Source of the DNA: Verrucomicrobium sp.
GTDB taxonomy: Bacteria > Verrucomicrobiota > Verrucomicrobiia > Methylacidiphilales > UBA1321
NCBI GenBank assembly: GCA_017849585.1
Contig: JAFIGT010000023.1
Coordinates: forward strand, 1 to 64,000
DNA length: 64,000 nt
Reading direction: 5' to 3'
The notes beneath the pieces are model-generated. The model worked only from the letters and a program-made list of their open reading frames with translations, was not told the DNA's origin and searched no databases. The translations under genes were made by a program, and so were the position numbers. This document shows, in pieces, positions 1,041 to 21,991 of this stretch (within the stretch, counting starts at the first letter, position 1; each line of letters opens with the position of its first letter).

Positions 1041-3932
1041 TTATTTCCCTTCGAGGAAAGCCGTTCCATAGAACGCCGTCTCCTTCTTGCTGACGATGCC
1101 GCCAAAGAATTCCAGCGCGCGACGATCGCTCGGCACTGTCGCGCCATCGCTATCATTAATGGCAGCAGCCACCTTAAGCTGACTGGGTGAACGCTGTCCT
1201 TTCGGATCAAGAAGCTTCCACGGCATCGTAATCAGATAGTGTGTATGTCCATTGGATCGCCCACCTGAGAGACTGACTCCGGGAAATCGAACGAGACCAT
1301 CCTGAGGAACAACCGTTCCGCCCGGCGCCGTGTTAAGGTAGATTTCGCCTCCACGCGGTGTCCACGCAAACGTCCATTCGCTATTGGTTCTCGCGTTTGT
1401 TTCCGCCAACAGATTGCTGTTGGATTCGCGTTCCGGGGCCACATCAAATCCCAATTGCAGGCTGTCTTGCGACCAGGTGCTGCCCTCCGGCGCTTCTTGG
1501 CGATGAACATCGTCAAGCACATCCACTTTCACGTAGACATTGTTCTCGTCATAGGCGTAGCTGATCGAAGCGGAGAGATCGGAATTGCCGCGAAACTCCG
1601 TTCCGTGGCTGATTCTCCAGATGGATTCGGATGTCGTCACCAATTTCGTTTCCGGCATGGACTTCCAGAAATCACTTTCAGACGGACGCTTCCGTATCAC
1701 ATAGAACGTCAGCAATCCCTTTTGCTGCAGAGCCGTTGCATTACTCGCTTTGAAGTCGACCGTTGCCTGATAATTGCGAGGAGCGCTTTGCACATCGACA
1801 GGGAACGTGATTTTCTTTTCCACTCCCGGCGCGAGAGAAAGAACCTGCTCAGGCGCGGCATTGTTCTCGATCTTGAGCAAAGCTTTTCCCACCCAGTCGA
1901 AGGGAGAAACATTCTTCGCGGTGACGGTGGCCACCCACTGCGTGGATTGAAAGGCCGTGCGTATCGCACCGATTTCAAGCTCAGGCATCACCTCAAGCGG
2001 TTGAATGCCGCTATAGAGACGTTTTCCGTTCGAACTAATGCGAATGTAGCCGGGAGCCCGGCCCAGCGGTGCATTGGCCGCCACATCAAAACGCACTTCC
2101 GTCTTTTTCGGCGTTGCCTTGGAGAAGCTCGCCTGAACGCGTCCGGAGTAAATATCCGAGATCGTGTCAAAGGTCAGCTTCAGATCACTTTCCTCGGCCA
2201 ACCGATTCAGCCCCACAGTCTGAACAGAGGGATGTCCGCGGTACAATTTCCAGACAGCTTCAGTATTAAGCATCGAGGTAATGCGTCCCGCTCCATACAG
2301 CGACTCCGACAGCCCTCGCACATAGGTGGCACCACGCCCCAGCTTCAAAGTCAAGCGGCCATCCTCAGTGGTTCTCTGTTCGTGATTGCCGAACTGATCC
2401 ACCACATCCACCTTGGGCTGGCCGGCATCGAATACAATGGACCGGTTTTGATCCGTGGCATCCCAGATCGCGGCAAGGATCGTGCGGCTGCTTTTATCCT
2501 GGTATACGTAACCCCAGATTCCGGAACCGAGATAATCGAGCTTGCCGATAGACTCGGCCCGCGCCACTTGATCCGCGGCCGCCCTCACGAGCGCAACCGC
2601 CGGCTTGGGCGAAATCTTGGACGGCCCGAATGGAAGCTTGGGCACAAGGTTATAGTTCATCCCGTATCCGGGTTCACCAGCATAGTCGGCCAGATAAAAC
2701 AGCGTTTGCTTAGTCGCTTTCTCTCCTTTGAAAATCAGGATCGACGCCGCCAATCCATACCCTTGGTTGAGCGCCGAACCAGTCACCCCTTGGGGATATC
2801 CATACTCGGTTCCCATAAAGGGCACATCGCGGCCCATATACTGAATGTTCACCGCGCGGATGGCTTGCAGCGATTCCGCAATGTTGCTGCTCTCGGGCGG
2901 ATACCCTTTGTACGGATGGAAGGAAACGATATCCAGATAGCGGCCCAGTCCAGCCTTGAGCAGCTTTTCATAGTACTCACGATCATTGAGTCCGGACAAC
3001 GTGGGTCCCGCAATTTTCCCTTTCGGGTCATGCTTACGCACCACTTTGTGGGCGATCTCAAAGGTTTTGACGATCTCCTCGGGAGTACCATACCACCCCC
3101 ACGGAATCATCGGTTCCCACATGACCTCATATACGCGCTCGGGGAGGAAGTCGTAGCTTTTCACCAAATAGGGAATCAATTTTTCGAGAAACGCCTCCCA
3201 CGCGGCCCAATCCTTTGGCGGTACCCGTTGTGTGCTACGCCCCGAACGCTCCTTCTCGGGAAGCCGCGAAATGTCAACCGCCCACATCGGCGTTCCATTA
3301 AGATGGAAGTAGGGGACAACCTTCAGCTCTCGGATCCACTGGGGATTGGGATCTTTGGCAATATTCTTCTCAAAGGTTCCCGGCCCGTCTGCTTCGAGAT
3401 GCCCCCAGTGATAACCCACCCCCCAGCTTTGCACTCCGAGGTAGGGATACGCGTCCCAACCGAAATTGGCTTTCGGTCCGGACTTTTGCAGAATGGTGGT
3501 TCCCTGTGCGCTCAGGAACGATGAGGTAAAGTCGTTGCTGGGGTTGGGATTGATTTTTTCAACCACGGACCAGGTCAACCGTCCCGCCGGACGTGAACCC
3601 AGTTCGGGAATGACCTGCGCGGAATTGGCGCCAGTCGCTCGGACCTCATAGTAGCCAAGCCGGTTGGTCGGCAGCGCTATCTTCCAAGCATCTCCGTTTT
3701 TCACAGCAGTGAGTTTTTGCAGCGACTTGCCTTCGTGATCAAACAGCGCGAACTCCGGCACTGTCGGCTGCGGATCGTTTCCGCTCCAGCTCAACTCGGC
3801 CCACGCCTCATCTCCACGCTCATAGAGCGAGAGATCGGGATGATTGAGGTCGATCTTCCATTCCGCCAGCACAGCCACCGGAATAACCATCAGCAATCCA
3901 AGGGCGAGGAGCCCGGCAATAATACGCTTCAT
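1041..3932 (-). CDS. Secreted clan GH-A-like glycoside hydrolase with C-terminal CBM9-like domain
   Basis: The 963-residue protein starts with a signal peptide (residues 1-23, cut after VLA). An N-terminal beta domain is followed by a (beta/alpha)8-type region with a strand-4-like motif EVMWEPM (Glu near 273, candidate acid/base, Trp replacing the usual Asn) and GTEYGYP (Glu near 374, candidate nucleophile). After a beta-rich middle, residues about 745-900 resemble the CBM9/DOMON carbohydrate-binding fold. I infer an extracellular polysaccharide hydrolase of unassigned family and substrate. Its start overlaps the upstream gene's stop by 4 bp (ATGA, 3929-3932), so the two are probably translationally coupled. 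It is the last gene of the operon that begins at 6160. Confidence 0.7.
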   Translation of the reverse strand: MKRIIAGLLALGLLMVIPVAVLAEWKIDLNHPDLSLYERGDEAWAELSWSGNDPQPTVPEFALFDHEGKSLQKLTAVKNGDAWKIALPTNRLGYYEVRATGANSAQVIPELGSRPAGRLTWSVVEKINPNPSNDFTSSFLSAQGTTILQKSGPKANFGWDAYPYLGVQSWGVGYHWGHLEADGPGTFEKNIAKDPNPQWIRELKVVPYFHLNGTPMWAVDISRLPEKERSGRSTQRVPPKDWAAWEAFLEKLIPYLVKSYDFLPERVYEVMWEPMIPWGWYGTPEEIVKTFEIAHKVVRKHDPKGKIAGPTLSGLNDREYYEKLLKAGLGRYLDIVSFHPYKGYPPESSNIAESLQAIRAVNIQYMGRDVPFMGTEYGYPQGVTGSALNQGYGLAASILIFKGEKATKQTLFYLADYAGEPGYGMNYNLVPKLPFGPSKISPKPAVALVRAAADQVARAESIGKLDYLGSGIWGYVYQDKSSRTILAAIWDATDQNRSIVFDAGQPKVDVVDQFGNHEQRTTEDGRLTLKLGRGATYVRGLSESLYGAGRITSMLNTEAVWKLYRGHPSVQTVGLNRLAEESDLKLTFDTISDIYSGRVQASFSKATPKKTEVRFDVAANAPLGRAPGYIRISSNGKRLYSGIQPLEVMPELEIGAIRTAFQSTQWVATVTAKNVSPFDWVGKALLKIENNAAPEQVLSLAPGVEKKITFPVDVQSAPRNYQATVDFKASNATALQQKGLLTFYVIRKRPSESDFWKSMPETKLVTTSESIWRISHGTEFRGNSDLSASISYAYDENNVYVKVDVLDDVHRQEAPEGSTWSQDSLQLGFDVAPERESNSNLLAETNARTNSEWTFAWTPRGGEIYLNTAPGGTVVPQDGLVRFPGVSLSGGRSNGHTHYLITMPWKLLDPKGQRSPSQLKVAAAINDSDGATVPSDRRALEFFGGIVSKKETAFYGTAFLEGK

Positions 3933-4507: not shown

Positions 4508-5236
4508 TTAAAAATTCGCTGTCTGAACATCAGTGAAATTCGGATTCTTGATGACTTCCACATGACCATCCATAAAGAGGTAGTGCATGCCAGATGGGTG
4601 AACCTTTTGATAAGGAGCCACCTGATTGTTCCAACTGGAGGCATCGTAGAAGACGTTGCGCCCTTCGACCAAGTAGACGATCTTCGACAAGGAAACCTGC
4701 GACGATGTCAGCCGGACCGGACGTCCACCAGGCCATCCAGACCCCACCAGATTCTGCGCATAATCCACAGACTGATTGAACCCCCCCCACGGAGCAGGCC
4801 ATTTCTGGGAGGCCGACACGTGCGGCTGCGCCGGGCACACGTAAACCTTGCTATCCGGCCTTTCCAAGGTGCTCCCTACATATGGAGCGATGATTTGCGC
4901 CCAAGTCTTGTTGTTACTCTCCGCATCGTCGCTATACCACGAGACAACAGGCATGAAGTTGTGTTCCGACGACCATGCCGTGAAGGCCATATTAATCTGC
5001 CGTAGATTGGAAAGACAGGCTTGCGACTGCGCTTCCTGTCGCGCCAACCGTAACGTGGGCGTGACCAAGACCATGAGGATGCCGATGGTTGCCACCGTCA
5101 CGAGCAATTCCGTCAAACTAAATCCCCTCGCTTTCACGATCACCGATTGCTTGCACGCTCCTGAAATGCCACGGATCGGGCTTAACCCTCTCCACAGGGC
5201 CGATGCCGGGACAAGGCGTTTCAGAATTGAGCTCAT
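4508..5236 (-). CDS. Pseudopilin-like protein, prepilin cleavage motif plus H-X9-DG domain
   Basis: The 242-residue product carries a type IV prepilin signal RG/FSLTELLVTVATIGIL (residues about 37-52) with the +5 Glu required by prepilin peptidase, then the hydrophobic helix, then ACLSNLRQINMAF. Near the C-terminus HPSGMHYLFMDGHVEV gives the H-X9-DG signature. Such proteins are abundant in Verrucomicrobiota, Planctomycetota and Lentisphaerota; their role is unproven. The leader ahead of the cleavage site is unusually long (about 37 residues), so a start further in is possible. It sits 12 bp upstream of the small binding protein in the same operon. Confidence 0.8.
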   Translation of the reverse strand: MSSILKRLVPASALWRGLSPIRGISGACKQSVIVKARGFSLTELLVTVATIGILMVLVTPTLRLARQEAQSQACLSNLRQINMAFTAWSSEHNFMPVVSWYSDDAESNNKTWAQIIAPYVGSTLERPDSKVYVCPAQPHVSASQKWPAPWGGFNQSVDYAQNLVGSGWPGGRPVRLTSSQVSLSKIVYLVEGRNVFYDASSWNNQVAPYQKVHPSGMHYLFMDGHVEVIKNPNFTDVQTANF

Positions 5237-7364: not shown

Positions 7365-7405
7365 TTGACGCAGGCGTTTTTTTAGTATACCTTACACGAG
7401 TAATG
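7365..7405 (+). promoter_or_regulatory. Promoter whose LacI-type operator ends in the start codon
   Basis: -35 TTGACG (7365-7370) and a 17-nt spacer precede TACCTTACACGAGTAATG (7388-7405), in which TACCTT is the -10 by alignment and the final ATG is the start codon of the GH29-like gene. It matches the 6188 operator segment at 16 of 18 positions in the same phase to the -35. A TATACC hexamer at 7386 would give only a 15-nt spacer. The mRNA would be nearly leaderless. Confidence 0.7.
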
Positions 7406-8410
7406 CAAAATACTCGCCTCGCCTCCTTCTTCAAATCCCCCTTTGCCCAGCCCATCGCTCGCTGGGGTCTGATGTTTCATTATCTCGACAGCCCGGCCAG
7501 TAGCGCCGGTGCTTCGCACACCTCGGCGGGCGATTGGAACCGGCGCGTGGATGCGTTCGATGTCGACGACTTCGCCTCGCAGGTAAAGGAATCGGGTGCC
7601 GGATACATTATCTTCACGATCGGACAAAACAGCGGCCACTTCTGCGCCCCCAATCCGGTTTACGACGAACTGACCGGTCTGGGAGAATCCCGCCTGTCGC
7701 GCCGCGATCTCATCGACGAGATTGCGACCGCCTTGACACCGGAAGTCAAGGTGATCGCGTACATGCCCTCACACGCCCCGGCCATGCATGTTGAAGCCGT
7801 TCGCGCCCTGAAATGCCTGCCACCGTGGGAATGTGGCTCATGGGGAGTCAATCGCTTTTGGGCGGAAGAGGAAAACGCCGATGCGCGATTGACCGAGTTC
7901 CAGAACCACTGGCAAGACATCCTGCGGTATTGGGGGCTGAAGTGGCGGGACAAGGTCGCGGGATGGTGGCTGGACGGCTGCTATTACTATGAGCAGCTTT
8001 ACGCAGGAGTCGCGGAACCGAACTTCAAGACCTTCGCGCAAGCACTTCGCGCGGGCAATTCATCCCGCATTCTCGCTTTCAATAATGGCACGGACACTCC
8101 CTTTGCCCGCCTCTGTCCCGAACAGGATTACACGGCGGGAGAGGTTTCCACCTCGTTGCCGGTTCACAACAAATGGAAATCCCTTCAAGAGCAGGCCGAG
8201 GGACAGCAACTACACCTGCTCACTTACCTCGGCCATTGGTGGGGAGAAGGCAGTCCGCGTTTTGATGAGCGGTTTGTTTCCAGCTATACCCACCTGATCC
8301 TCCAGTCCGGCGGGATGATCACCTGGGACGTTCCCATCGGCCTGCGGGGACAAATCAGCCCCGACTTTCTCAAGCTGTTCGCCAAAAGACCCGCCTTTTC
8401 CTTGGCCTGA
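7403..8410 (+). CDS. GH29-like glycoside hydrolase (alpha-L-fucosidase-related), cytoplasmic
   Basis: The 335-residue protein lacks a signal peptide. It begins with RWGLMFHYL, matching the first strand of GH29 barrels, continues with YIIFTIGQNSGHFCAPN and WWLDGCYYYE (Asp near 191 in the position of the GH29 nucleophile), and stops without the C-terminal beta-sandwich of most family members, which are 450-600 residues. It may be a divergent barrel-only fucosidase or a sister family. The start at 7403 keeps the first strand; M24 (7472) would cut just ahead of it. That start codon is part of the operator. The MFS transporter follows after 14 bp, suggesting import followed by intracellular cleavage. 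Confidence 0.65.
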   Translation: MQNTRLASFFKSPFAQPIARWGLMFHYLDSPASSAGASHTSAGDWNRRVDAFDVDDFASQVKESGAGYIIFTIGQNSGHFCAPNPVYDELTGLGESRLSRRDLIDEIATALTPEVKVIAYMPSHAPAMHVEAVRALKCLPPWECGSWGVNRFWAEEENADARLTEFQNHWQDILRYWGLKWRDKVAGWWLDGCYYYEQLYAGVAEPNFKTFAQALRAGNSSRILAFNNGTDTPFARLCPEQDYTAGEVSTSLPVHNKWKSLQEQAEGQQLHLLTYLGHWWGEGSPRFDERFVSSYTHLILQSGGMITWDVPIGLRGQISPDFLKLFAKRPAFSLA

Positions 8411-9914: not shown

Positions 9915-10955
9915 TTACCGATCAATACCGCTCAACTCGCGCACTGCGTCACTGACGTTCGGCCTTGCCACGTCTCGATCCGCAAAATCAATCCGCGTTT
10001 TTCGCGTGCGAATGGCTTCCATCAAGATCACCTGCTGGCGACAGTCCTGCAGTTGGGGAGACACCGTGCCGATGCCCTGCACGGCATTGAGGAACGCCTC
10101 CGTTTCATAATAAACACCATTACGCTCCACCAACTCTGGATTCATTACCATCACCCGGCTCTTGAGGGCACCGCCGCACCAGTGACTTGTCTCGCCATCG
10201 AACGTCGCCTGAGCGCCCAACAGATTCACATGGATGCTTTGATCAATGGCATGAATGGCTGCCGTCTCCTCCAATAATCCCGACATGGGCTGAAACGTCA
10301 ACGAGACCTCCGTTCCATTCAGGCACACCCCTTCCATCGAAAAAGCGGCCACACCGGCACCGCTTTGCGGTAGTTCCCGGTAAGTCAGACGAATTTCGCG
10401 GTAAGGACTGCGGGCCAGATACTGCACCGCATCGATGCCGTGAACCGCCGTAATGGAAAAGTCAGATTCGTTGCGTGAGTAACGGACGAGGTCATAACGG
10501 ATGTGCAACACCTCTTCCGCCGGAATATCCCGATCAAGCCATTGTCGCGCGCGAACGAGAGCCGGCGCGTAGCGACGGTTGAACGCCACTTGGTTGAGAC
10601 CACATCCCTTTTGCGCGGCGGCCAGCAAACGCCGGTATTCATTCAAAGTCAGACCCGGCGGCTTCTCAAGGTGCAGAGCCATTCCCCGCTCCAGCAGCGG
10701 GATAGCCACGCCGCTCGTGGCGGAGGCCGGAACCACCAACGCCACGGCATCCGGATTCTCCTTCGCGAGCATTTCCTCCAGATTCGTATAGCAGCGCTGG
10801 AAGCCAAACGTAGCGCGGTAGGTCTCAGCCAATTGGGGATTCAGATCGCAGCAAGCCGCTAGCTCCACCTTGGGATGGCGTTGCGCGTAGAGTTTCTGCG
10901 AAGGTCCATGCGAATGGCTCGCATGGCCACCGCACCCAATGGTACAAAATTTCAT
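9915..10955 (-). CDS. Gfo/Idh/MocA-family NAD(P)-dependent oxidoreductase
   Basis: The 346-residue protein has an N-terminal Rossmann fold (CTIGCGGHASHS, residues 4-15), the family catalytic motif EKPPG at residues 97-101 with the conserved Lys, and the C-terminal beta-sheet domain. Members oxidise or epimerise sugars, inositols and sugar acids in the cytoplasm. It is the last gene of the locus B operon, and its start overlaps the previous stop by 4 bp (10952-10955). I infer that it modifies a monosaccharide released by the upstream secreted protein. The substrate cannot be told from sequence. Confidence 0.85.
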   Translation of the reverse strand: MKFCTIGCGGHASHSHGPSQKLYAQRHPKVELAACCDLNPQLAETYRATFGFQRCYTNLEEMLAKENPDAVALVVPASATSGVAIPLLERGMALHLEKPPGLTLNEYRRLLAAAQKGCGLNQVAFNRRYAPALVRARQWLDRDIPAEEVLHIRYDLVRYSRNESDFSITAVHGIDAVQYLARSPYREIRLTYRELPQSGAGVAAFSMEGVCLNGTEVSLTFQPMSGLLEETAAIHAIDQSIHVNLLGAQATFDGETSHWCGGALKSRVMVMNPELVERNGVYYETEAFLNAVQGIGTVSPQLQDCRQQVILMEAIRTRKTRIDFADRDVARPNVSDAVRELSGIDR

Positions 10956-13864
10956 AATGAGGTGTTAGGATTGGTTGAGGGTGAAAAACGGGCAGAAGAC
11001 GCCGACTTCTCGACGACGCGAATCTGGATCAATAATGGAGTCGCCTTGGGCGGAATCGGAATCACCAGGCGCTTGATATCGGTCAGGCAGGAATCCTCCA
11101 GTTTACCGGAAAAGGCCTCGGGCCATTCCAAAATCACAGAGCCGGTTGCGGATGAAATCACCAGTCGATGGGGCGTTTCCAACTTGGCCGTGGTTTGACC
11201 TGTCGCGATCCGGATCGGCAGGTTGAGAAAGGATTCCCGAACTCCACCCAAGGAACGCATCGACACGGCCAAATCCAACCCTTGATCCTTCGCCCGATAA
11301 TTCCACGACAATGCCAACAAGACAGGTGATCCCATCTTGGAAGCGATCTCCCATTGGCGCGTCGGTTCAAGGACCTTCAACTCTGCTCTCTCGTGTCCCG
11401 AGGCAAAAAAGACTCCCTTCTCATCCGTTCCGTAGATACAGGAATAAGTCAATTGGTCCGGACCGCGAATCGTCTTGGTTTCGGCTTTAAGATGACCGCT
11501 CTTACCGGAGGCATCGGGCTGCATGGAGGCGAGAAAAGTCCCGGTGATTTCACTCCACAACGCCGTCGGACCACCACCCGTCACCCCCACCAGTGGCCGT
11601 CGCGCCCCCGCGACATCGTAGAAGAGCACTCCATACAATGGGCCTTGTTTCCACGCCAGGAATCCCGGTAGATCCCAGAATCCCCTCTTCTGCTGAAAGG
11701 GCAACGACGCGGGAGCGACCGTCGCTTTCTCCGTGTACACCTTGACCAGACTTTCCACCCAATCCCCATTACTGACGTTGGGATAATAAGCCGGCCCCCA
11801 GGCGAGCCCCTGCTGTAGTGTCCGCTGAATCCACGCCGGAGTATTGGCGATAAAGGAATTGGTACCAGCTAATCCAATGCCCTGCTCAGGTTCGCGATCC
11901 AAAGCGCTTCGCGCGGCGGCGAGCGGAAATTCATTACGCGCCAGATATTCGCCCGGATAACCCGCAAAGCAAAACATTGCACTCGTCCGACAATTCAACG
12001 CCGTGGGGGAATGCAAGGATCCATCGGGTTGCGCTATCCAAAAGAAACTTTTGAAACGCAAATTCTTTTCGATACCTTCCTTCAGAGCCGCCACCAATGC
12101 CGGTTTGGCCACAGGCAATTTTTTATAGTCATTGTAGCAAGACACGACCGCATACAGATTCAAGCGATCGTAGTTGCCATCGGGACCATACTCTTCGAGA
12201 AAATAACCCGCCGGATGCTGCCCGAATTTCGCGTCAGCTCCATATGCGCCGCCGAGATAGGCTTGCATCTGCGTTTCAAAATAACGCAGGAATCGTTTTT
12301 CGCCCGTCGCCAGATACGTGTTCAAATGGGCTTTCATCATGTGCGCCCATTGATTCGATTCGTAGGCTTGGTGGTCGGCCACTTTGTCGCCGATGGCGAG
12401 AATCGCTTGCCGCCATATTTCACGGGGCTCCGGTGGCAGCGAATCCTTCAGCGCGCGAAAGGAAGCAGACAAGCCGTCATAGATGAAGAACGTATGCGTT
12501 AGCGGATACGAACCGCGAAAGAGACTATTATCGCGGATCAAATCATCGCCCTGCAAAGTAGCGATGTGAAAAAAACCGGCGAGGATGGCCCGTTGCAGGA
12601 TGTTCTCGTGATGGTAAGCCGGATTCAACCGCGCCTTGTAGCTGTAAAGCACGGCGAAATTGGTCGAATCATAGAGTGAGACAAATCCGCCGGAGTACGG
12701 CAGAAAATTCACCCACGAATCTTGATTCTCATCTCCCGCTTTCAATCCCGTTGGCCACGGAATTCCAAAATACGGATTGGCTGGGTCCAGCGTCGCATTC
12801 TGCTCCTTGATCGCATTATTCAGACCATTCAGTCCTCCATATTTTCCAAAGAGCAGAACCTCCAATTGTGGTGAGACCAAATCTGCCGGCACTTCCTGTG
12901 GCCAGGCAATCGCCGGTTCCCGCTCAACGCCACGATGAGCCAGCATCCAGCGACGCGCTCGTGCTTGCAAGGGTCCCGCCACAGGGACGCCCTCACAAAG
13001 GATGGTCCCACCCTGCAAACGAGCCGCCGCTTTTTCACTGGGGCACAACAATCCGGGAGCCCCTTCGAAATCGATCACGCCATCATATCCTGCGGGGAAT
13101 TCCAGACGACATACGGCACCCTTGGGTACCGGATCGATCAGAAGCCATTTCGGTGAGGCGGCCGCTCCTTCCGCGAAGGCTTGATCACCCGTAGCCGATT
13201 TCACCGCCAGTCCTGCCGCAGATCCCGACTCGACGCCAATGCGAAGTTTCCGCGAGGTCGGTGGGATCCAAAAATACGCGGGCCGTGGTGTCGTCTGCGA
13301 AAGCGACAACGCCATCTCGCCGCGCACGCCCCATACGGTCGTTTCCGCAATGCGAATCTCAACCCAATCCCCGCTGCGCCCACCCGAAAAGGACACTCTC
13401 CAAATCCCCGGCTTTCCGCTGGGGATCTTGAGCATGCGAACGTCCGTCTCTTGGGTCTGGTCCGTGAAGTCTTCAATCGCCGCGAGATTTCCCTCCGGGT
13501 CAAATACTCGCGCCAATGCCACCGGCGTGTAGGGCTCTTTCCCGCCCACCACGGTCCGGCGTGCGACCAGAAAGCGCTTTTCGCCTGCGACCTGGTATTC
13601 CGCCAACAACCCAAAACCACGCACGCCACCACCCAGGACGTAAATGCGATTCCGTTGCGCAATGGGAAATTCGATCGCCAGAGCAGGCGAAACCATTGAG
13701 GCACCTTCACCCGAAATGGCACTCGCGTACACACCCGGACCGCCGTCGGATTTCTCATTCAGGCCGAGGACCGGAGGTTTGGACGTCCCCGCATTCTCTG
13801 CGGCCATCGTCGCAGAGGAAATCGCGACCCCCACCCAACACAACGTGAAAAACAATCGATTCAT
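10952..13864 (-). CDS. Large secreted protein, putative (alpha/alpha)-toroid polysaccharide-degrading enzyme
   Basis: The 970-residue product starts MNRLFFTLCWVGVAISSATMA, a signal peptide, at 13864; the frame is open further upstream, but this ATG gives the signal and a 4-bp overlap with the previous stop. Residues about 30-320 look like beta-sandwich modules. Residues about 400-750 are helix-rich with SNQWAHMMKAH, QHPAGYFLEEYGPDGNYDRLNLY and NCRTSAMF, resembling alpha/alpha-toroid lyases and hydrolases. A further beta domain follows (GPLYGVLFYDVAGARRPLVGV). I do not recognise the family; a lyase is a guess from the toroid-plus-beta layout. The oxidoreductase follows with a 4-bp overlap. Confidence 0.55.
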   Translation of the reverse strand: MNRLFFTLCWVGVAISSATMAAENAGTSKPPVLGLNEKSDGGPGVYASAISGEGASMVSPALAIEFPIAQRNRIYVLGGGVRGFGLLAEYQVAGEKRFLVARRTVVGGKEPYTPVALARVFDPEGNLAAIEDFTDQTQETDVRMLKIPSGKPGIWRVSFSGGRSGDWVEIRIAETTVWGVRGEMALSLSQTTPRPAYFWIPPTSRKLRIGVESGSAAGLAVKSATGDQAFAEGAAASPKWLLIDPVPKGAVCRLEFPAGYDGVIDFEGAPGLLCPSEKAAARLQGGTILCEGVPVAGPLQARARRWMLAHRGVEREPAIAWPQEVPADLVSPQLEVLLFGKYGGLNGLNNAIKEQNATLDPANPYFGIPWPTGLKAGDENQDSWVNFLPYSGGFVSLYDSTNFAVLYSYKARLNPAYHHENILQRAILAGFFHIATLQGDDLIRDNSLFRGSYPLTHTFFIYDGLSASFRALKDSLPPEPREIWRQAILAIGDKVADHQAYESNQWAHMMKAHLNTYLATGEKRFLRYFETQMQAYLGGAYGADAKFGQHPAGYFLEEYGPDGNYDRLNLYAVVSCYNDYKKLPVAKPALVAALKEGIEKNLRFKSFFWIAQPDGSLHSPTALNCRTSAMFCFAGYPGEYLARNEFPLAAARSALDREPEQGIGLAGTNSFIANTPAWIQRTLQQGLAWGPAYYPNVSNGDWVESLVKVYTEKATVAPASLPFQQKRGFWDLPGFLAWKQGPLYGVLFYDVAGARRPLVGVTGGGPTALWSEITGTFLASMQPDASGKSGHLKAETKTIRGPDQLTYSCIYGTDEKGVFFASGHERAELKVLEPTRQWEIASKMGSPVLLALSWNYRAKDQGLDLAVSMRSLGGVRESFLNLPIRIATGQTTAKLETPHRLVISSATGSVILEWPEAFSGKLEDSCLTDIKRLVIPIPPKATPLLIQIRVVEKSASSARFSPSTNPNTSL

Positions 13865-14463
13865 AATCCAACCAATTCCATCTCGTCCCACCAAAGCACA
13901 TTGCCCGGCAACGGTTCCGCACCGCCGCCCTTGGCTGAAATCATCATTGAGCTGATCTGATTCCAACCGCGCGGACTGCGCACGGGCTTGCATTGATTCA
14001 AATCGATCACCACTTGCCGCCAACCGGTCCAGTCGACCTTCAGTTGGTAGAAATAGTAGGAACGCAACTTGCCCTCCACGACTCCCGGTTCGCCATCGGC
14101 ATTGATCCAAAAATTGATTTTTTGACCGTTCGCCGCCTCCGCGTAGATCCAGACGCGCAACGCCTGATACGCACTCCAATCTTCCGGACATTTTTTCAAG
14201 AAGAGCCACGGACGACGACTCGGTTCCCACCGGGCCGACGTTGCCCCGGCCTTGACTTTCTCGGCATTGGATTCCACGTCAAAGGGCGAACCGCCATTCG
14301 CCCCATCACGAGACCACTCTGCATCCAACGGCTTCTCAAAACCACTCAGGAGCAATCGATGCGCCGCCGTGTCCTGAGCCCGCGCGTCAATATTCAGGGA
14401 AACGATGACCAGCACGGCAAAAAATAACGTGCGCGCCAAAAGAGGGGAGAAGAATGTATTCAT
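13861..14463 (-). CDS. Secreted carbohydrate-binding-like protein, locus B
   Basis: The 200-residue product has a signal peptide (MNTFFSPLLARTLFFAVLVIVSLNIDARA) and a single predicted jelly-roll domain: LLLSGFEKPLDAEW at the start, YQALRVWIYAEA, GWRQVVIDLNQC and a final strand NVLWWDEMELVGL. The terminal W-D-E-M/I-E strand is shared with the small protein of locus A (3929-4495) although overall similarity is low. I infer glycan binding or a scaffold role for the neighbouring large enzyme. The start at 14463 overlaps the pseudopilin stop by 4 bp and its own stop overlaps the next start by 4 bp. The longer open frame to 14682 antisense-reads the pseudopilin and is not used. Confidence 0.6.
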   Translation of the reverse strand: MNTFFSPLLARTLFFAVLVIVSLNIDARAQDTAAHRLLLSGFEKPLDAEWSRDGANGGSPFDVESNAEKVKAGATSARWEPSRRPWLFLKKCPEDWSAYQALRVWIYAEAANGQKINFWINADGEPGVVEGKLRSYYFYQLKVDWTGWRQVVIDLNQCKPVRSPRGWNQISSMMISAKGGGAEPLPGNVLWWDEMELVGL

Positions 14464-15194
14464 GGCTTGAGAGCAGTAGTACCCAATTTTTTCCCGGTTC
14501 CTTCCTTGGAAGCATCGATCTGGCCGGTTTGATAAATGGCGTCGATGTAGCCTTTGTAGAGACGCCCATCCTCGCCGCTCAACCACTCGACGTGACAATC
14601 CATGAACGCCATGTTGGCTCCATCCAGGTGCCTCAAGGGAATCTCCGGAGTCGTGCCCCAGTTCGGTTTCCAGCCATCCCAAAACAGAGGCACGTACGCC
14701 GCCGCGGCACCAAAATAGGTATCCATGTTCAGCGACGAGGTCTTGGTGTAGTTCTGGTAATTATCGAGAGCGACATGATTGTAGTCCGGTCCGCCCTGCA
14801 CCGGATCGATGGTCTGCCCGGTCAGCGCGGCACCGGGACATTTCTCAGTCGGCTCCACAATGAATTGCCCCCGGCTCGTGTATATACTGTTCGAGCTGGT
14901 ACGATAATAATGCCTCAGCGTTTGGATGCCCCAGGCATTATGTCCCTCGGAATCCGGGTCGCTGGACGTCACGGAGCGCGGTGGAGGCAGATTTCCCCGA
15001 TCCATCCGATAGGCCTGATGCGCCATCGCCAACGTGCGCAGATTACGACTGCATTGCAGGCTGGCCAATCGATGCTGGATCTTTTGATAAGCGGGCAGGC
15101 TCAGCGCCAGCAGTCCAATCATGATCCCCACCACGACGAGCATTTCCGTCAAGGTAAAAGCCCTGCAGGATCTGGCTGGGAACATTCGCTTCAT
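14460..15194 (-). CDS. Pseudopilin-like protein with modified H-X9-DC motif
   Basis: The 244-residue product has a short basic leader and prepilin cleavage motif CRA/FTLTEMLVVVGIMIG (residues about 10-25), the hydrophobic helix, and CSRNLRTLAMAHQAY. At the C-terminus HLDGANMAFMDCHVEW corresponds to the H-X9-DG block, but Gly is replaced by Cys. It is the first member of a chain of four genes joined by three ATGA overlaps (14460, 13861, 10952). The chain thus couples its translation to a binding protein, a large secreted enzyme and an oxidoreductase. The PEP-CTERM gene lies 33 bp upstream on the same strand. Confidence 0.8.
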   Translation of the reverse strand: MKRMFPARSCRAFTLTEMLVVVGIMIGLLALSLPAYQKIQHRLASLQCSRNLRTLAMAHQAYRMDRGNLPPPRSVTSSDPDSEGHNAWGIQTLRHYYRTSSNSIYTSRGQFIVEPTEKCPGAALTGQTIDPVQGGPDYNHVALDNYQNYTKTSSLNMDTYFGAAAAYVPLFWDGWKPNWGTTPEIPLRHLDGANMAFMDCHVEWLSGEDGRLYKGYIDAIYQTGQIDASKEGTGKKLGTTALKP

Positions 15195-15227: not shown

Positions 15228-17186
15228 TTATGCCAACCTCCGGCGGGCTGCCATTAAGATCATGAGCCCACCCGAAAGCAGCAAGGCGGCAGAAGGCTCC
15301 GGTACCACCACCAGATAAATACCATCAGCCGCGTAGGAGAAATAACTTCCCGCGTAGCTTTCCAAACCCGAGCCGATCTGCAGTCCGGAACTCAGGCCGC
15401 TGTCCATCACTGTAGTTCCATTATCGGAATAAAAACGGAACAATAAATAGGAACCCTCCTGCAATCCGCCCGCGTCGACAATATTGACCTGATTGCCCGC
15501 CAGCGAAAAATCCCCCAGCGTGTAATTTAAGAAATCAACCGTATCCGCTGAACCCAACGCTCCCAGTTCGAATTCAAAGGCAGCCCCGCTCTCCATCGTC
15601 AACAGGGTTCCCGTGGTCGAACCGCCATTGAACCGCAAGTGACCAATCCCCTCGCCTGGCGCCAGAATGGAACCCGACTGCATAATCACCCCGTGAGTAC
15701 CCGTGGGTGCGATGATGCCCGTTCCACCGAGTTTCGCACCGCTCCGAACCGTAACGTCTCCTGTCCCGGTGGCCGACCCGCTGGTATTGGCGACGAGCAG
15801 CGTTCCCGCTTTCACGATCGTTCCGCCGTCATAGGTATTGCCAGCGGCCCGGCTGAATTTCACGATGCCCACCGGCGTGCGTGTCTCGTACACGGGACTC
15901 GAAAGACTGAGTGAAGCCGCCGCGTTCACCTGCTGATAGCTGTCATTGATATTCACCCCGACCGTGTTGGCCAGGTCATCGATCAGCGCGGAGAATTCCG
16001 TGACCGCACCCGAGTTGAGCGAGGCCAGATTGACCACGCCCGCCGCTACATCCTGCAAGCGCACCGACCCGGTCGGGGAGAAATTGACCGTGCCCGTATT
16101 GTGAATGCCCGCGATGGTGTCCATCCCGCCACCACTCATCACGTCCAGATACGTACCGCCAAAGCTCCCCGCCGTGTCCACCAGCAAATTACCGCGTCCA
16201 CCCGTCGCTGCGCTCCCGGAGGTGGCCCCCAGTTTGATGCGGCCATTGGTGCTTCCGTTCAGTGTGGGAGTCGACGAAAAAACATAGGAATAATTTCCCG
16301 TGTTTTCGGAAAGCAACTGCAGCCCATTGGAATCCATGCCGGAAAGAGTGATGCCTCCCGAAAAAATCCAGGTCCGCGCGTCGCCACGAATCGCGAATTG
16401 CTGCCCATTCATATTCCCCGAGATGTTACCGAGCGTGGTCTGAAAATTATTATTCGTCTGGGCACCGGCACTATAGAAAGCGGTCGCGGCGGTTGGATTC
16501 GAAATCACGATCGAATTGGTAATCACCGAGGCTCCGAAATAAACCCCCGAGTTTCCCTGAATGGTCAGAGCGCCTGTTCCCAAGGCATTATTATGATATA
16601 GGTGAAGCGTGCTGCTCGAAAGGGTCGTGCCGCCATCGTAGCTATTATTGCCATACAAAATGAACACCCCGCCACCGCTCAGAGTCAGCCCGTAGGTGTC
16701 CGTCGAATCGGTGATGGAACCGTAAACACGCATCGCCTGCGCGCCGCCCGATGCCGTATTTTGCCAAACGCCGCTGGCACCCAGCCGCAGGGTCGAGTAG
16801 AGATAGACAATTCCCGTCGTGCTCTTGGTAATATTCCCGGATGAGATTGTCAGCGTGGGTGTACCCGATCCATTCACCAGCGAAACCGCCGCCGATCCGT
16901 TGAACGTCAGCGAGTTTACAGTCTGACTCGTTCCATTCAAACTCGGTGTGCCGGACGTGTACCCGCTGCCAAAAACGATATCGTCCGTTGCCAGGGGCAC
17001 CGCATCGCCACTCCAATTCAACACCGTATTCCAGTACGCATTCGCGCCACCGCCATCCCAGGTCACCGTGGCGGCAGAGGACGCCATCGGCGCCGCCAAA
17101 ATAACCGCCAAGCCCAAGAGCCGAATCTTCACAGACGACCATAAGGACCGCTGCGCCAAAGTGTGAATGGGGTGATTCCGTTGCAT
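15228..17186 (-). CDS. PEP-CTERM protein with autotransporter-type beta-strand repeats
   Basis: The 652-residue product begins MQRNHPIHTLAQRSLWSS with a signal peptide ending ASSA, then WDGGGANAYWNTVLNWSG, the start of the autotransporter-associated beta-strand repeat class. A Gly/Ser/Thr-rich right-handed beta-helix-like body includes GNTYDGGTIVKAGTLLVANTSG. The end VVPEPSAALLLSGGLMIL plus RRRLA is a PEP-CTERM sorting signal for exosortase. The start at 17186 is chosen over 17273 because AGGAAA lies 8 nt upstream and it gives the signal peptide directly. A surface or matrix protein of locus B is inferred, facing a divergent LacI regulator. Confidence 0.8.
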   Translation of the reverse strand: MQRNHPIHTLAQRSLWSSVKIRLLGLAVILAAPMASSAATVTWDGGGANAYWNTVLNWSGDAVPLATDDIVFGSGYTSGTPSLNGTSQTVNSLTFNGSAAVSLVNGSGTPTLTISSGNITKSTTGIVYLYSTLRLGASGVWQNTASGGAQAMRVYGSITDSTDTYGLTLSGGGVFILYGNNSYDGGTTLSSSTLHLYHNNALGTGALTIQGNSGVYFGASVITNSIVISNPTAATAFYSAGAQTNNNFQTTLGNISGNMNGQQFAIRGDARTWIFSGGITLSGMDSNGLQLLSENTGNYSYVFSSTPTLNGSTNGRIKLGATSGSAATGGRGNLLVDTAGSFGGTYLDVMSGGGMDTIAGIHNTGTVNFSPTGSVRLQDVAAGVVNLASLNSGAVTEFSALIDDLANTVGVNINDSYQQVNAAASLSLSSPVYETRTPVGIVKFSRAAGNTYDGGTIVKAGTLLVANTSGSATGTGDVTVRSGAKLGGTGIIAPTGTHGVIMQSGSILAPGEGIGHLRFNGGSTTGTLLTMESGAAFEFELGALGSADTVDFLNYTLGDFSLAGNQVNIVDAGGLQEGSYLLFRFYSDNGTTVMDSGLSSGLQIGSGLESYAGSYFSYAADGIYLVVVPEPSAALLLSGGLMILMAARRRLA

Positions 17187-17236
17187 AATGATTTCCTGAT
17201 ATCTGTAGCTTCGAAGGAAATGATCTCGCTTGCAAT

Positions 17237-17260
17237 TTGCGCGCAACTCATCACGATGAG
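17237..17260. promoter_or_regulatory. Candidate LacI operators in divergent promoter region
   Basis: Within the 79-bp gap between the PEP-CTERM gene and the LacI gene are TTGCGCGCAA (17237-17246, perfect, CG centre) and immediately after it CTCATCACGATGAG (17247-17260, six-base arms around AC). Both are LacI-like in form. Neither resembles the operators of loci A or C, as expected for a different regulator. Function is inferred. Confidence 0.45.
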
Positions 17261-17265
17261 TAGAG

Positions 17266-18312
17266 ATGCCCAATCAACGCGACGTCGCCACCGCTCTCGG
17301 CCTGAATCAAGCCACCGTTTCCCTCGCTTTGCGCGGCGATCCCTCCATTCCGGTCAAGACACGCACCCTCGTCTTGGAGACGGCTCGCCGCCTGGGGTAT
17401 CAACCCAATTCCTATATCTCCACTCTCATGGCCCATGTCCGCGCGGGACGCCCCTTGCAGGACAAGGGCTGTATCGGATTACTCGTGGATTCCACCTCCT
17501 CGAGCAACTGGCTGGAACCGGATCCCTATCAAAAATATTACCGGGGAATCACCCGCCGAGCAGGGCAGCTGGGCTTCCACACCGAATGTTTTTTCCTGCA
17601 AGCCACCGGAATGAATGCGCCACGAATCGACCGCATTCTCCACGCGCGGGGAATCACTGGCGTCATCATCACCGCTCCATGGAGATCCACGCCACAGCCG
17701 CTCGTCATGCATTGGGAACGCTACGCCTCCATTACGACCGGGTATTCCTGGAAAGCCCCCGATGTCGACCGCGTCGCCAATGATCAGTACAAGAACGTCT
17801 TGATCGCCTACGGACAGCTCTTTCAGCGCGGCTACCGGCGGATTGGCCTGTGCCTGCCGTCGCGACATGCGGAGGCTACGCTTTCCCGCTGGCTCGGTGG
17901 CTACGCGCAATGCGAACAACAATTTCAGGGCGGCCCGCAGATCCCCACATTCTTTGGCACACCCGCCGACACCGCCATCACCCTCTTTCGTGACTGGCTC
18001 CGCAAATGGAAACCGCAGGCGATCATCACGCTGATCGGTCATGAAATGGAATGGCTGCAGGAACTCAAACTACGCGTACCGGAGGAACTCGCCATCGTCA
18101 GTGTGGTGCGACCCGCCGGATCGGATTTCGCCGGGGTCGAGGAAAGTAATGAAACCATTGGCGAGATCACCGTGGACCTCGTCTCGTCCCAAATTTTCCG
18201 CAACGAATTCGGTCTCCCCGAAAAGCCCAAGCTCGTGCTCGTCGAAGGCCATTGGGTCAACGGCCCGACGATCGCCGACCACGCGCCCCTTCCCCGTCGT
18301 AAAAAGCGCTGA
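17266..18312 (+). CDS. LacI-family transcriptional regulator of locus B
   Basis: The 348-residue protein opens directly with the helix-turn-helix (RDVATALGLNQATVSLALRGD, residues 5-25) and GYQPNSYISTLMAHVR, which replaces the classical hinge. This layout is common in Verrucomicrobiota LacI proteins. The sensor domain includes RGYRRIGLCLPSR and RVPEELAIVSVVRP; the final part predicts binding of an unusual ligand. It diverges from the PEP-CTERM gene at 17186 and probably controls that operon (17186 to 9915). The effector is unknown. It is convergent with the MFS gene at 18353, 40 bp away. Confidence 0.88.
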   Translation: MPNQRDVATALGLNQATVSLALRGDPSIPVKTRTLVLETARRLGYQPNSYISTLMAHVRAGRPLQDKGCIGLLVDSTSSSNWLEPDPYQKYYRGITRRAGQLGFHTECFFLQATGMNAPRIDRILHARGITGVIITAPWRSTPQPLVMHWERYASITTGYSWKAPDVDRVANDQYKNVLIAYGQLFQRGYRRIGLCLPSRHAEATLSRWLGGYAQCEQQFQGGPQIPTFFGTPADTAITLFRDWLRKWKPQAIITLIGHEMEWLQELKLRVPEELAIVSVVRPAGSDFAGVEESNETIGEITVDLVSSQIFRNEFGLPEKPKLVLVEGHWVNGPTIADHAPLPRRKKR

Positions 18313-18352: not shown

Positions 18353-19747
18353 CTACTCCGGCGGCCGGTAGCTGGAGGGACCTCCCAGCGCCATGAACTT
18401 CCGGTACAGGACACCTCCACACGCGAGAGCCACCACCGAAATGCCCGCTCCTGCGTAAAAAGTATAGCGGTACACATGACCGCTTTGGTCCAGCAACAAA
18501 CCGATCGACGGTGGCACCACAATCGAAGTGACACTGATCAAAATACCGCAAGCGGAGTTCAACTCGGCAAAGCGTTGACGCGGCAGCAGTTTTTGCGCGA
18601 GCGAGGCGGACGCGGTAAAATACGTTCCCATCAACACACCATGTACTACGAAAATAATGCCGAAGTTCCGCGCGTTATCCGCATAGAGCCCACCCCACAA
18701 TGAAGTCAGCACGTAGAGTCCCATGGCGACCAAACTCACCCGCAACGGGTGAAAACGATCCGCCAGCGCCCCGAGCGGATAAGCCAGTACGAGCGAGATG
18801 AGGTAGGTGAGCGCGAGGCACGTTCCATAATCACCCATGCTCATATTCACACTCCGCGCATAAAACACGCTGAAGAGATTCACCGGACTGCCCGCGATGG
18901 CACACAGGGACATCACGCCAAAGAACCAGAGATAATAGGAGTGTCCGAAGCAGTCCCGGAAATAAACCTTCGCGGCGGAGAAAAAACCTCCAGCCGATCC
19001 CGGCAACGGCTCATCCGGCGGTGGGGGATAGGTTCCCTCCTTGACCTTGAGACACATGACCGTGAAGCCCACGCCATAGAGCAAACCAATGCCAATGAAG
19101 ATCTCCACAAAATGGGTCTCCGCCTTGCCGAGCATCCAGAAGTTGAAAATGATTCCGGCAATCAAACTCAGCGCGCGGAACAAACCGAAAAAACGCCCCA
19201 GCACTGGCTGCGGAACCACGTCATTCACCAAACCGCCAAAGACCGAATTCGCGATGATGCTCGCGAATTCAAACAGCGTCCAAAAAAGTCCCAGCGACAG
19301 GAGAATAGAGACATTGAGCCCCCAGCCCTTGAGCGCCGGTAGTTCATGCAGCCATTCTCCCAACTGCGGACTGAAGGCCAGCCCAACCATGGCCAGCACA
19401 GCAATCGGCGTCGGAATCAACAGGAAGGGAATGCGCCGCCCCCAACGACTACGATGGCGATCCGATTTATAGCTGATGATTGGACCAATCAACATCGCGA
19501 GCGCTGCGGGCAATGACCCGATCAACAAACCGGTCACCATATCGGAAGCGTCGTATTTCTTGAACAACAACTGAATCACCGAAGGCACGGAACGTTCGCG
19601 CATCGACCATGCAAAATCACCCCACAACAGCCAGCAAAACAGCACCGCGAGACCGCCCGTGGTGTAGGTCAGCGTGCCGACTGTCCAGCGTTTCGAGCCG
19701 GGCGGATTCTCCTCACACTTCGACTCGTCAACCACCGTGGATTTCAT
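18353..19747 (-). CDS. MFS sugar transporter, locus C
   Basis: The 464-residue membrane protein has about twelve hydrophobic segments and the loop motif SDRHRSRWGRRIPF (residues 95-108) of sugar MFS/GPH symporters. A soluble N-terminal stretch of about 20 residues precedes the first helix. The upstream GH95-like gene ends one base before its ATG (19748), so the two are almost certainly co-transcribed. I infer import of the mono- or oligosaccharide released by that secreted enzyme. Confidence 0.82.
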   Translation of the reverse strand: MKSTVVDESKCEENPPGSKRWTVGTLTYTTGGLAVLFCWLLWGDFAWSMRERSVPSVIQLLFKKYDASDMVTGLLIGSLPAALAMLIGPIISYKSDRHRSRWGRRIPFLLIPTPIAVLAMVGLAFSPQLGEWLHELPALKGWGLNVSILLSLGLFWTLFEFASIIANSVFGGLVNDVVPQPVLGRFFGLFRALSLIAGIIFNFWMLGKAETHFVEIFIGIGLLYGVGFTVMCLKVKEGTYPPPPDEPLPGSAGGFFSAAKVYFRDCFGHSYYLWFFGVMSLCAIAGSPVNLFSVFYARSVNMSMGDYGTCLALTYLISLVLAYPLGALADRFHPLRVSLVAMGLYVLTSLWGGLYADNARNFGIIFVVHGVLMGTYFTASASLAQKLLPRQRFAELNSACGILISVTSIVVPPSIGLLLDQSGHVYRYTFYAGAGISVVALACGGVLYRKFMALGGPSSYRPPE

Positions 19748-21991
19748 TTATTTCCTCCCCTCCTGAAAGTGCATGGGGTACGGATTCGCTAATCGAGAAG
19801 TACTCGCAACCGGTCTGAGTGGGATCAGCGGAGCTTGCGCGGTTTCGGTTAATACCACGGTCTCGCCCTTGGAAAGCGAGACCTCAATGAGTCCCGCTGC
19901 CGTCCTCTTCACTTGGGGTGTCACGCCGCTTGAGGCCCGCACCGCCACGGTTTTCCAATCGCCCACCTGCACGCGACAGGGAGCACCCGCGAGACTTTGA
20001 ATCTGCACCCACGCGGTACGCCCTTCGTGTCGAACCGCGCTCACAAGAAAGGCCCCTTCGCCACGAAGCGAGTGAAAACTGACTTCCGGCCAGCCCGACG
20101 GTATCGCGGGAAAAATCCGCAGGCGTCCGCCTCCGCTCTGCAGCAACATTTCCTGCAAACTGGTCGCCGCTGAAAGGGGCGTCTCAATCACCGGACCTGC
20201 TTCCATATAGAACGTATTGGGCAGCACAAACCGATTCAAAAGCTGCTGCAATTGTTTTTCGGCCCCGTCGCCATGACCAAGCATCGCTTCCATCGAGGCC
20301 GCTCCGGTATGGGAATATCCCTTGAATTTTTCCGGCCGACTTGTCCAGTTCGCCAGCGATGTTTCAATCAACGCCCGATCAGTCGGCTCATCAGGGTTCA
20401 ATAACTGTAGCGGATAAATGGCCAACAGATGTGAGTAATGCCGGTGCGACTCCTTGAGCGGCTGTCCGCGTCCGATCAGAAGCCCCGTGGCATCGGTCGG
20501 AAAGGGAGTCAATCCCGCCAGCACTTCCTTCCAACGCGGTAACAGCGGTTCCTCCGGCTGCACCCGTTCGGAAGCAGTGATCAGCGCCTGCAATCCCCAC
20601 CGCAGCAGCGCGAGATCATAATTGCAGTCCGGCGCGGCCAGCAATTCCGGAGAGTACGTGAGCGGCAAATGCCAGCGGCCATCTTCCCCCTTTTCGATCA
20701 CCGCCAGATAATGTCCGATCGTCAGCTTCAGAAGCGGCAACACCCGATCCCGCAAGATCGCCTCGTCCTGCTGATACGCGTAGTATTGCCAGTAGAGAAA
20801 CAGCACCCACGGCAAATTCCCCATCTCGGTTCCCTTGCCCGACTGAATCCCACGAGCCACATCCACCGGGGCGACCAGATCATAGCCGGATGCGGTGCCA
20901 ATCGCCGCCGCTTGTCCCCGCCATGGCTTCGGCACATTATCACCGAGTTGCTGCCGATGCTGATCCAACGCCCGGAAAAGGGATTCCGCCGGAGCCAGCC
21001 GGTTCGCCGTGAAAAGCGGTGAGTAGGTCAATTGCACATTGAGATTCCACCAGACCTTTGACCACGGTGTCGGCGCGAACCAAGGCCCCATCAAATCAAG
21101 GATCGGCCCGTTCTCGCGCATCGCCGCGCCGAGCTTGTAAATTTGAATCCAATAAAAAGCCTCGAGCCGCGCCTCCGGGATCGAAAGAAAACTTTGGGGG
21201 TAATAGGCATGCCACCACTCGCGGTGAGCAGTCGTGATTTTCTCCAGCCCCAACGCCACAGCCTGATCGGTGGTTCGACGCGCTTCGGCCAGCGCCTCGT
21301 CACCTGTCGCACCGGGACTGATACTGATGAAATATAATTTCCCGCCGTCCGCGGTAGCCGTCTGAACCACACATTCCGCATGCGCCCCGCCGCCGAGAAA
21401 AGATTGCACGCTCGTAATCATTCCACCAGCGCGTGAAACCACCGCAGCGGGGTGCAATTCCTGTTCCGTGAAGACCTCCTTGCGGTAAACCTTGCGCGGC
21501 GGTCGCGCCTCCGCCGGTTCCCAATTTAACTCCACGCCACTTTCACCCTCCGCGCCTTTGAGCTCAATCACCAGAACCGATGGCGTCGTCGCCGTGAACG
21601 TGCGCCAGTGAATACTCCCCCGCTCCGTCCGAAGCGTCCCCTCCGCTTCCGCATCCCACAGTTTCAGTCGCGCCTCGCCCCCGCACAACGCCCCGGCCGT
21701 CCGCACCACCAGCCGCCCGATAGGATAACGCGACGACTCATGCGTCACATCCGCACGATTGATCTGCCAGCCGAACGTCCCCGCCTCCAAGCAAACCGTC
21801 GCGCCGAGATTGCCATTACCGATAAAAACACTGTCACGCCACTGCGTCGGAATGCGGGACCAAACCAGATCCTGTCGCGCCAAAAATGCCGACCAATCGA
21901 TGACCACCTCCGGCAACGTTCCGGCCCCGGAGCGCGCCGTCGCGAGGAGAACACCGGCGGAAATTCCCAGGAACAGTCGCCGCATGTTCAT
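19748..21991 (-). CDS. Secreted GH95-like glycoside hydrolase
   Basis: The 747-residue product has a signal peptide (MNMRRLFLGISAGVLLATARSGA) and follows the GH95 layout: N-terminal beta-sandwich (FIGNGNLGATVCLEAG), alpha/alpha barrel with WWNLNVQLTYSP near residue 317 in place of the usual NINTxMNYWP, ESHRHYSHLLAIYPL near 514, and ETPLSAATSLQEMLLQSG in the position of the QIDGNFG block. The usual Asn/Asp catalytic residues are partly replaced, so specificity may differ from alpha-1,2-L-fucosidase. It lies 33 bp downstream of the PEP-CTERM gene and abuts the MFS transporter. It is a divergent paralogue of the cytoplasmic enzyme at 25375. Confidence 0.68.
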   Translation of the reverse strand: MNMRRLFLGISAGVLLATARSGAGTLPEVVIDWSAFLARQDLVWSRIPTQWRDSVFIGNGNLGATVCLEAGTFGWQINRADVTHESSRYPIGRLVVRTAGALCGGEARLKLWDAEAEGTLRTERGSIHWRTFTATTPSVLVIELKGAEGESGVELNWEPAEARPPRKVYRKEVFTEQELHPAAVVSRAGGMITSVQSFLGGGAHAECVVQTATADGGKLYFISISPGATGDEALAEARRTTDQAVALGLEKITTAHREWWHAYYPQSFLSIPEARLEAFYWIQIYKLGAAMRENGPILDLMGPWFAPTPWSKVWWNLNVQLTYSPLFTANRLAPAESLFRALDQHRQQLGDNVPKPWRGQAAAIGTASGYDLVAPVDVARGIQSGKGTEMGNLPWVLFLYWQYYAYQQDEAILRDRVLPLLKLTIGHYLAVIEKGEDGRWHLPLTYSPELLAAPDCNYDLALLRWGLQALITASERVQPEEPLLPRWKEVLAGLTPFPTDATGLLIGRGQPLKESHRHYSHLLAIYPLQLLNPDEPTDRALIETSLANWTSRPEKFKGYSHTGAASMEAMLGHGDGAEKQLQQLLNRFVLPNTFYMEAGPVIETPLSAATSLQEMLLQSGGGRLRIFPAIPSGWPEVSFHSLRGEGAFLVSAVRHEGRTAWVQIQSLAGAPCRVQVGDWKTVAVRASSGVTPQVKRTAAGLIEVSLSKGETVVLTETAQAPLIPLRPVASTSRLANPYPMHFQEGRK

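Follow-up and report, generated by a model that had tools for sequence, protein, structure and literature searches.

A secreted verrucomicrobial protein with probable distant kinship to heparinase II/III-type lyases, a candidate new family in the (alpha/alpha)n toroid clan

Acidic sugar chains, heparin and alginate among them, are cleaved by ring-shaped bacterial lyases; these toroid enzymes, of which about a dozen families are known, serve as tools to read and cut acidic glycans. Heparinase and PL8 are an accepted pair of the same general fold, and GH127 is a hydrolase with a helical barrel. Across PL8, PL12, PL17, PL23, PL33, PL35 and PL39, the neutralising Asn or His and the acid/base Tyr are separated by 53–63 residues (PMC12088678 Table 4; PMC11848413), the pair in PL33 being N238/Y291 (PMC11848413). 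In many members of the clan the C-terminal sheet domain also carries a His, 130–166 residues after the Tyr, and in PL8 and PL23 a His lies 8–9 residues before it (PMC12088678 Table 4). Here we describe P0001, a protein encoded in a 64,000-nucleotide stretch of Verrucomicrobium sp. DNA (the window), which is best read from its sequence as a new lyase family within this clan.

The minus strand from 10952 to 13864 is a single ATG-start open frame of 970 residues, and the plus strand across the same interval is closed by many stops. Residues ~1–22 (13799–13864, minus strand) resemble a signal peptide when inspected by eye, bearing out the proposal of a sequence-only reading that a large secreted protein is encoded here. 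The host genome, that of a freshwater member of the Verrucomicrobia, holds one copy. A 93% identical relative, L002, occurs in MAG Tous-C9LFEB, a member of the Verrucomicrobia from a freshwater reservoir (PMC5673642). Of the 263 nucleotide differences between the two genes, 191 affect third codon positions, and the codon changes are mostly synonymous (176, against 64 non-synonymous); P0001 is therefore a functioning gene under purifying selection.

Searches of Pfam, NCBIfam and PDB sequences returned no credible match to P0001 and no family-level hit to a glycoside hydrolase or polysaccharide lyase, in agreement with the initial impression that it belongs to no recognised family. Neither Hepar_II_III_C (PF07940), for P0001 or its 14-sequence family alignment (A1), nor Lyase_8_N, for P0001, was matched in Pfam, and the A1 members gave only stray Pfam matches (E > 0.05), none of them exceeding the cut-off for PF07944 (GH127). 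The A1 profile found no relative among PDB sequences, the plasmid and viral collections contained no relative of P0001, and a literature search retrieved nothing on the family. Relatives are scattered: they turned up in 8 of the 384 class genomes and in 14 of the 388 from the phylum, distant ones included in both counts, and share 36–57% identity with P0001 in these scattered genomes. Coverage beyond the phylum consists of one genome-contig scan with P0001 alone as query, which reaches close relatives only. More distant proteins (21–26% identity) join A1 by profile comparison, with E-values of 1e-39 for branch g2, 2e-14 for g3, 3e-8 for g4 and 1e-7 for g5. The resulting superfamily comprises five branches and ~50 collected sequences, and the distant members that were scanned lack a named family as well. 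In five genomes (L051, L053, L055, L059 and L061) a g5 member lies close to a second member from A1 or g2, which suggests that two branches of the superfamily work together there. The C terminus of one g4 protein (L058:3424–5607, minus strand) matches the PDB chain MiXBM (7ehg, E 0.0023) and is possibly a carbohydrate-binding module.

We then compared profiles of the helical region by hhalign. The superfamily toroid profile, built from 36 sequences chosen partly by motif pattern, which may inflate the score, matched a profile of 31 heparinase II/III-type proteins, mostly from the same phylum search, with a probability of 92.5% (E 4.8e-7, score 64.3). Because the E-values come from a single-template comparison, controls matter: with reversed alignments the score never exceeded 23.4, and with shuffled ones 12.3, where the real toroid scored 64.3, and the positive control, heparinase against PL8, reached 76%. 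The match held at 83% after removal of the three closest heparinase sequences, at 91% without g4 and at 69% without both, and random part-sets of the heparinase alignment gave 67–90%, with the same toroid region matched in every reduced-set run. The match is significant only with the deep set; shallow sets (three heparinases; PL8) gave no significant result. Remote homology of the toroid to heparinase II/III is thus supported at the profile level, over a helical domain spanning residues ~395–720 (11705–12682, minus strand), where a low-confidence model likewise shows a helix pattern. It also lends weight to the alpha/alpha barrel with an active-site loop that had been suggested from the motif QHPAGYFLEEYGPDGNYDRLNLY, present at residues 549–571 and conserved, short of proof of the fold: AlphaFold2 run on two sequences (P0001 and L002) returned a mean pLDDT of 28.7 for the full length and 34.6 for the toroid alone.

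Other helical folds matched less well. GH127 was the runner-up for the combined toroid (50%, E 1.6e-4), and PL8 (2.2%) and GH88 (1.2%) fell far below. Taken singly, and without motif selection in their case, A1, g3 and g4 matched heparinase at 61%, 70% and 84%, respectively, each preferring it to GH127, whereas g2 alone favoured GH127 (49%) over heparinase (4%). These comparisons bear on the main alternative, that P0001 is an (alpha/alpha)6-barrel glycoside hydrolase resembling GH127, GH88 or GH95, in which acids such as Glu557 and Asp562 take the place of the Tyr. We consider this unlikely but worth weighing, at about one chance in four. The helical barrel and the second-best profile match are the points of likeness to GH127, a likeness drawn from the profile comparison and weaker than that to heparinase.

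Within the toroid, the sequence points to a set of active-site candidates. Asn504 of the YESNQW motif (12353–12355, minus strand), invariant in all 14 A1 sequences, coincides in the profile alignment with the heparinase catalytic Asn and is the predicted carboxylate neutraliser. Tyr565 of GPDGNYD (12170–12172), the predicted catalytic acid/base, is present in every A1 member and throughout the wider set. The register of the tyrosine loop differs between alignments, one placing Tyr565 and another the non-conserved Tyr571 on the heparinase Tyr; we prefer Tyr565 as the best candidate, since it is invariant and lies 61 residues from Asn504, within the published 53–63, while the 67 residues to Tyr571 fall outside. 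Glu557 (12194–12196), eight residues before Tyr565, is conserved in 14/14 A1 sequences and, within the wider set selected by motif, in 94%, and an Asn624-x-Arg626 motif (11987–11995), invariant in A1, is a predicted substrate contact. In full, the A1 invariants (14/14) around these sites are Y501, S503, N504, Q505, E557, G560, P561, D562, G563, N564, Y565, N624 and R626. The wider set keeps G553, E557, G560 and Y565, the conservation of G553, E557 and Y565 being partly by construction, as segments were cut with the motif pattern. There g2 has NQS as its Asn motif and g4 probably has HN, and Arg626 is kept in most of the distant relatives, within HRT or xRT, and is missing from g4.

The hydrolase alternative also draws on the acids, with Glu557, Asp562, Asp440, Asp493 and Glu522 all invariant or nearly so in A1; against it, g4 has Val in place of Asp562 yet keeps Tyr565. 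Conserved Tyr/His/Glu had been named at the outset as a sign of novelty; of these the Tyr and the Glu appear in all 14 A1 sequences and the clan His does not: beyond residue 550, no alignment column holds His in as many as 7 of the 14.

P0001 resembles the heparinase II/III clan (PL12, PL21, PL15, PL17, PL33, PL35 and PL39) in its toroid, where this clan gives the best of the remote profile matches, and in an Asn and a predicted catalytic Tyr at compatible spacing. It differs from that clan in a loop that is ~4 residues longer before the Tyr in the preferred alignment, in a C-terminal domain with no detectable homology and no conserved His, in an additional large N-terminal beta domain, and in the lack of a Pfam match. 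This beta-rich domain, tentatively placed at residues ~70–330 (12875–13657, minus strand) from A1 and the strand pattern of the low-confidence model, contains the invariant motifs WGVRGE (178–183) and PGLLCP (270–275). Comparison of the N- and C-terminal domains with heparinase, PL8, GH127 and GH88 found no homology. The likeness to PL8 and PL23 lies in spacing (59–63 residues between Asn and Tyr; PMC12088678) and in a second active residue 8–9 positions before the Tyr. P0001 has Glu at −8 in place of His, however, and we rejected an identification as PL8 from spacing because the PL8 profile does not match (2%).

Taken together, we consider it about an even call that P0001 is exported as an enzyme with a distant relationship to heparinase II/III-type lyases, most likely acting on a uronate polysaccharide by beta-elimination. 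The protein would have a central (alpha/alpha) toroid flanked by beta domains at the N and C termini, and its substrate would be a polysaccharide containing uronic acid. By analogy with PL33, PL12 and PL35 (PMC11848413, PMC12088678), we infer that Asn504 would neutralise the carboxylate of the uronate at +1, and that Tyr565 would abstract the C5 proton and protonate the departing glycosidic oxygen, so that one residue provides both the base and the acid of a syn elimination. Glu557 and the Asn624/Arg626 motif would shape the active site.

The genes around P0001 are consistent with glycan degradation. Directly upstream, and overlapping its start by 4 nt, is a gene for a 200-residue secreted CBM11-like protein (13861–14463, minus strand; Pfam CBM_11 6.4e-9), and proteins 44% identical to it are encoded immediately before the orthologue in L045–L047. 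The P0001 stop is overlapped, also by 4 nt, by a gene for a GFO/IDH/MocA oxidoreductase (9915–10955, minus strand; Pfam 1e-14), which has 44–50% identical copies directly downstream of the toroid orthologue in L045–L048. The three genes form an operon that is conserved in a second family. The same cluster contains a PEP-CTERM-type exported repeat protein (15228–17273, minus strand; C-terminal motif recognised by eye), 53–54% identical and in the same place in L045–L047, and a divergent LacI-type regulator (17266–18312, plus strand; identified by eye), ~50% identical in the same positions. The regulated sugar locus with an oxidoreductase that had been envisaged is thus present. A GPH/MFS-type sugar transporter (18353–19747, minus strand; by eye), with a 65% identical copy adjoining the orthologue in L048, and a GH95-like glycoside hydrolase (19748–21991, minus strand; Pfam Glyco_hydro_95_cat 2.9e-25) follow. 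In the proposed pathway, the CBM11-like protein would help to bind the glycan, and the transporter would bring in the products, for processing by the oxidoreductase inside the cell.

The CBM11-like protein also weakly matches the N-terminal domain of chondroitinase ABC (Lyase_N, 4.4e-4). A split chondroitinase ABC was rejected because this match does not reach the cut-off and that to CBM_11 outscores it; the protein is encoded by a separate gene, and the likeness may reflect a shared beta-sandwich fold only. Further open frames of the window were noted in passing. Positions 7403–8410 (plus strand), next to genes for a LacI protein and a transporter, encode a 335-residue protein without a Pfam match that looks by eye like a GH29-type barrel, and within the sugar locus a 670-residue frame (22025–24037, minus strand) likewise lacks one. 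A 963-residue protein with a CBM9-like stretch (1041–3932, minus strand) has a 33% identical relative beside a toroid homologue in L054 (4830–7658). Pseudopilin-like proteins (14460–15194 and 4508–5236, minus strand) adjoin the sugar-degradation genes, a pattern repeated near relatives in L048, L060 and L061. The window also encodes a heparinase II/III-type protein (29302–31380, minus strand; PF07940, 4.5e-10), with homologues near the toroid orthologues in L049 (44%) and L050 (35%).

Gene content also speaks to the hydrolase alternative. The neighbours include hydrolases: GH95 in the window and, in L046, GH29 and GH31 next to the orthologue. On the side of the lyase reading, heparinase-like genes lie near the orthologues in L049 and L050, as well as in the window; in L049 a sulfatase is also close by. 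No GH88/105 unsaturated-uronyl hydrolase to finish lyase products was found in the host genome (96% complete), which favours a hydrolase and weakens a classical lyase pathway, leaving room for an exo-lyase or another downstream enzyme. A non-catalytic role, in which P0001 is a glycan-binding surface protein using the helical ring as a scaffold, would suit its export and its position beside CBM-like and PEP-CTERM proteins, but a group of polar residues, and not aromatics only, is strongly conserved, which makes this improbable. Least likely of all is a uronyl C5-epimerase on a lyase toroid like human dermatan sulfate epimerase: Ds-epi1 does share the two-domain fold and related catalytic residues (PMC11848413), but the locus has no epimerisation-specific feature, and its export, CBM, LacI regulator and transporters look degradative.

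Returning to the lyase reading, we tentatively propose, as something short of an even chance, that P0001 founds a new polysaccharide lyase family within an undescribed Verrucomicrobia superfamily of at least five branches, with a Glu in the tyrosine loop substituting for the clan His, a uronic-acid glycan as substrate, and a translationally coupled CBM partner and oxidoreductase. The earlier suggestion of a new lyase or hydrolase family is accordingly plausible as to a new family and not as to unrelated novelty, since P0001 would sit within a known clan and mechanism. The predicted roles of N504 and Y565 are directly testable. If the proposal is true, an unnamed superfamily with a different active-site make-up in Verrucomicrobia-type genomes would extend the clan, some 50 collected proteins would gain a name for automatic annotation, and the family would be a lead to the use, in freshwater, of an acidic glycan yet to be defined.
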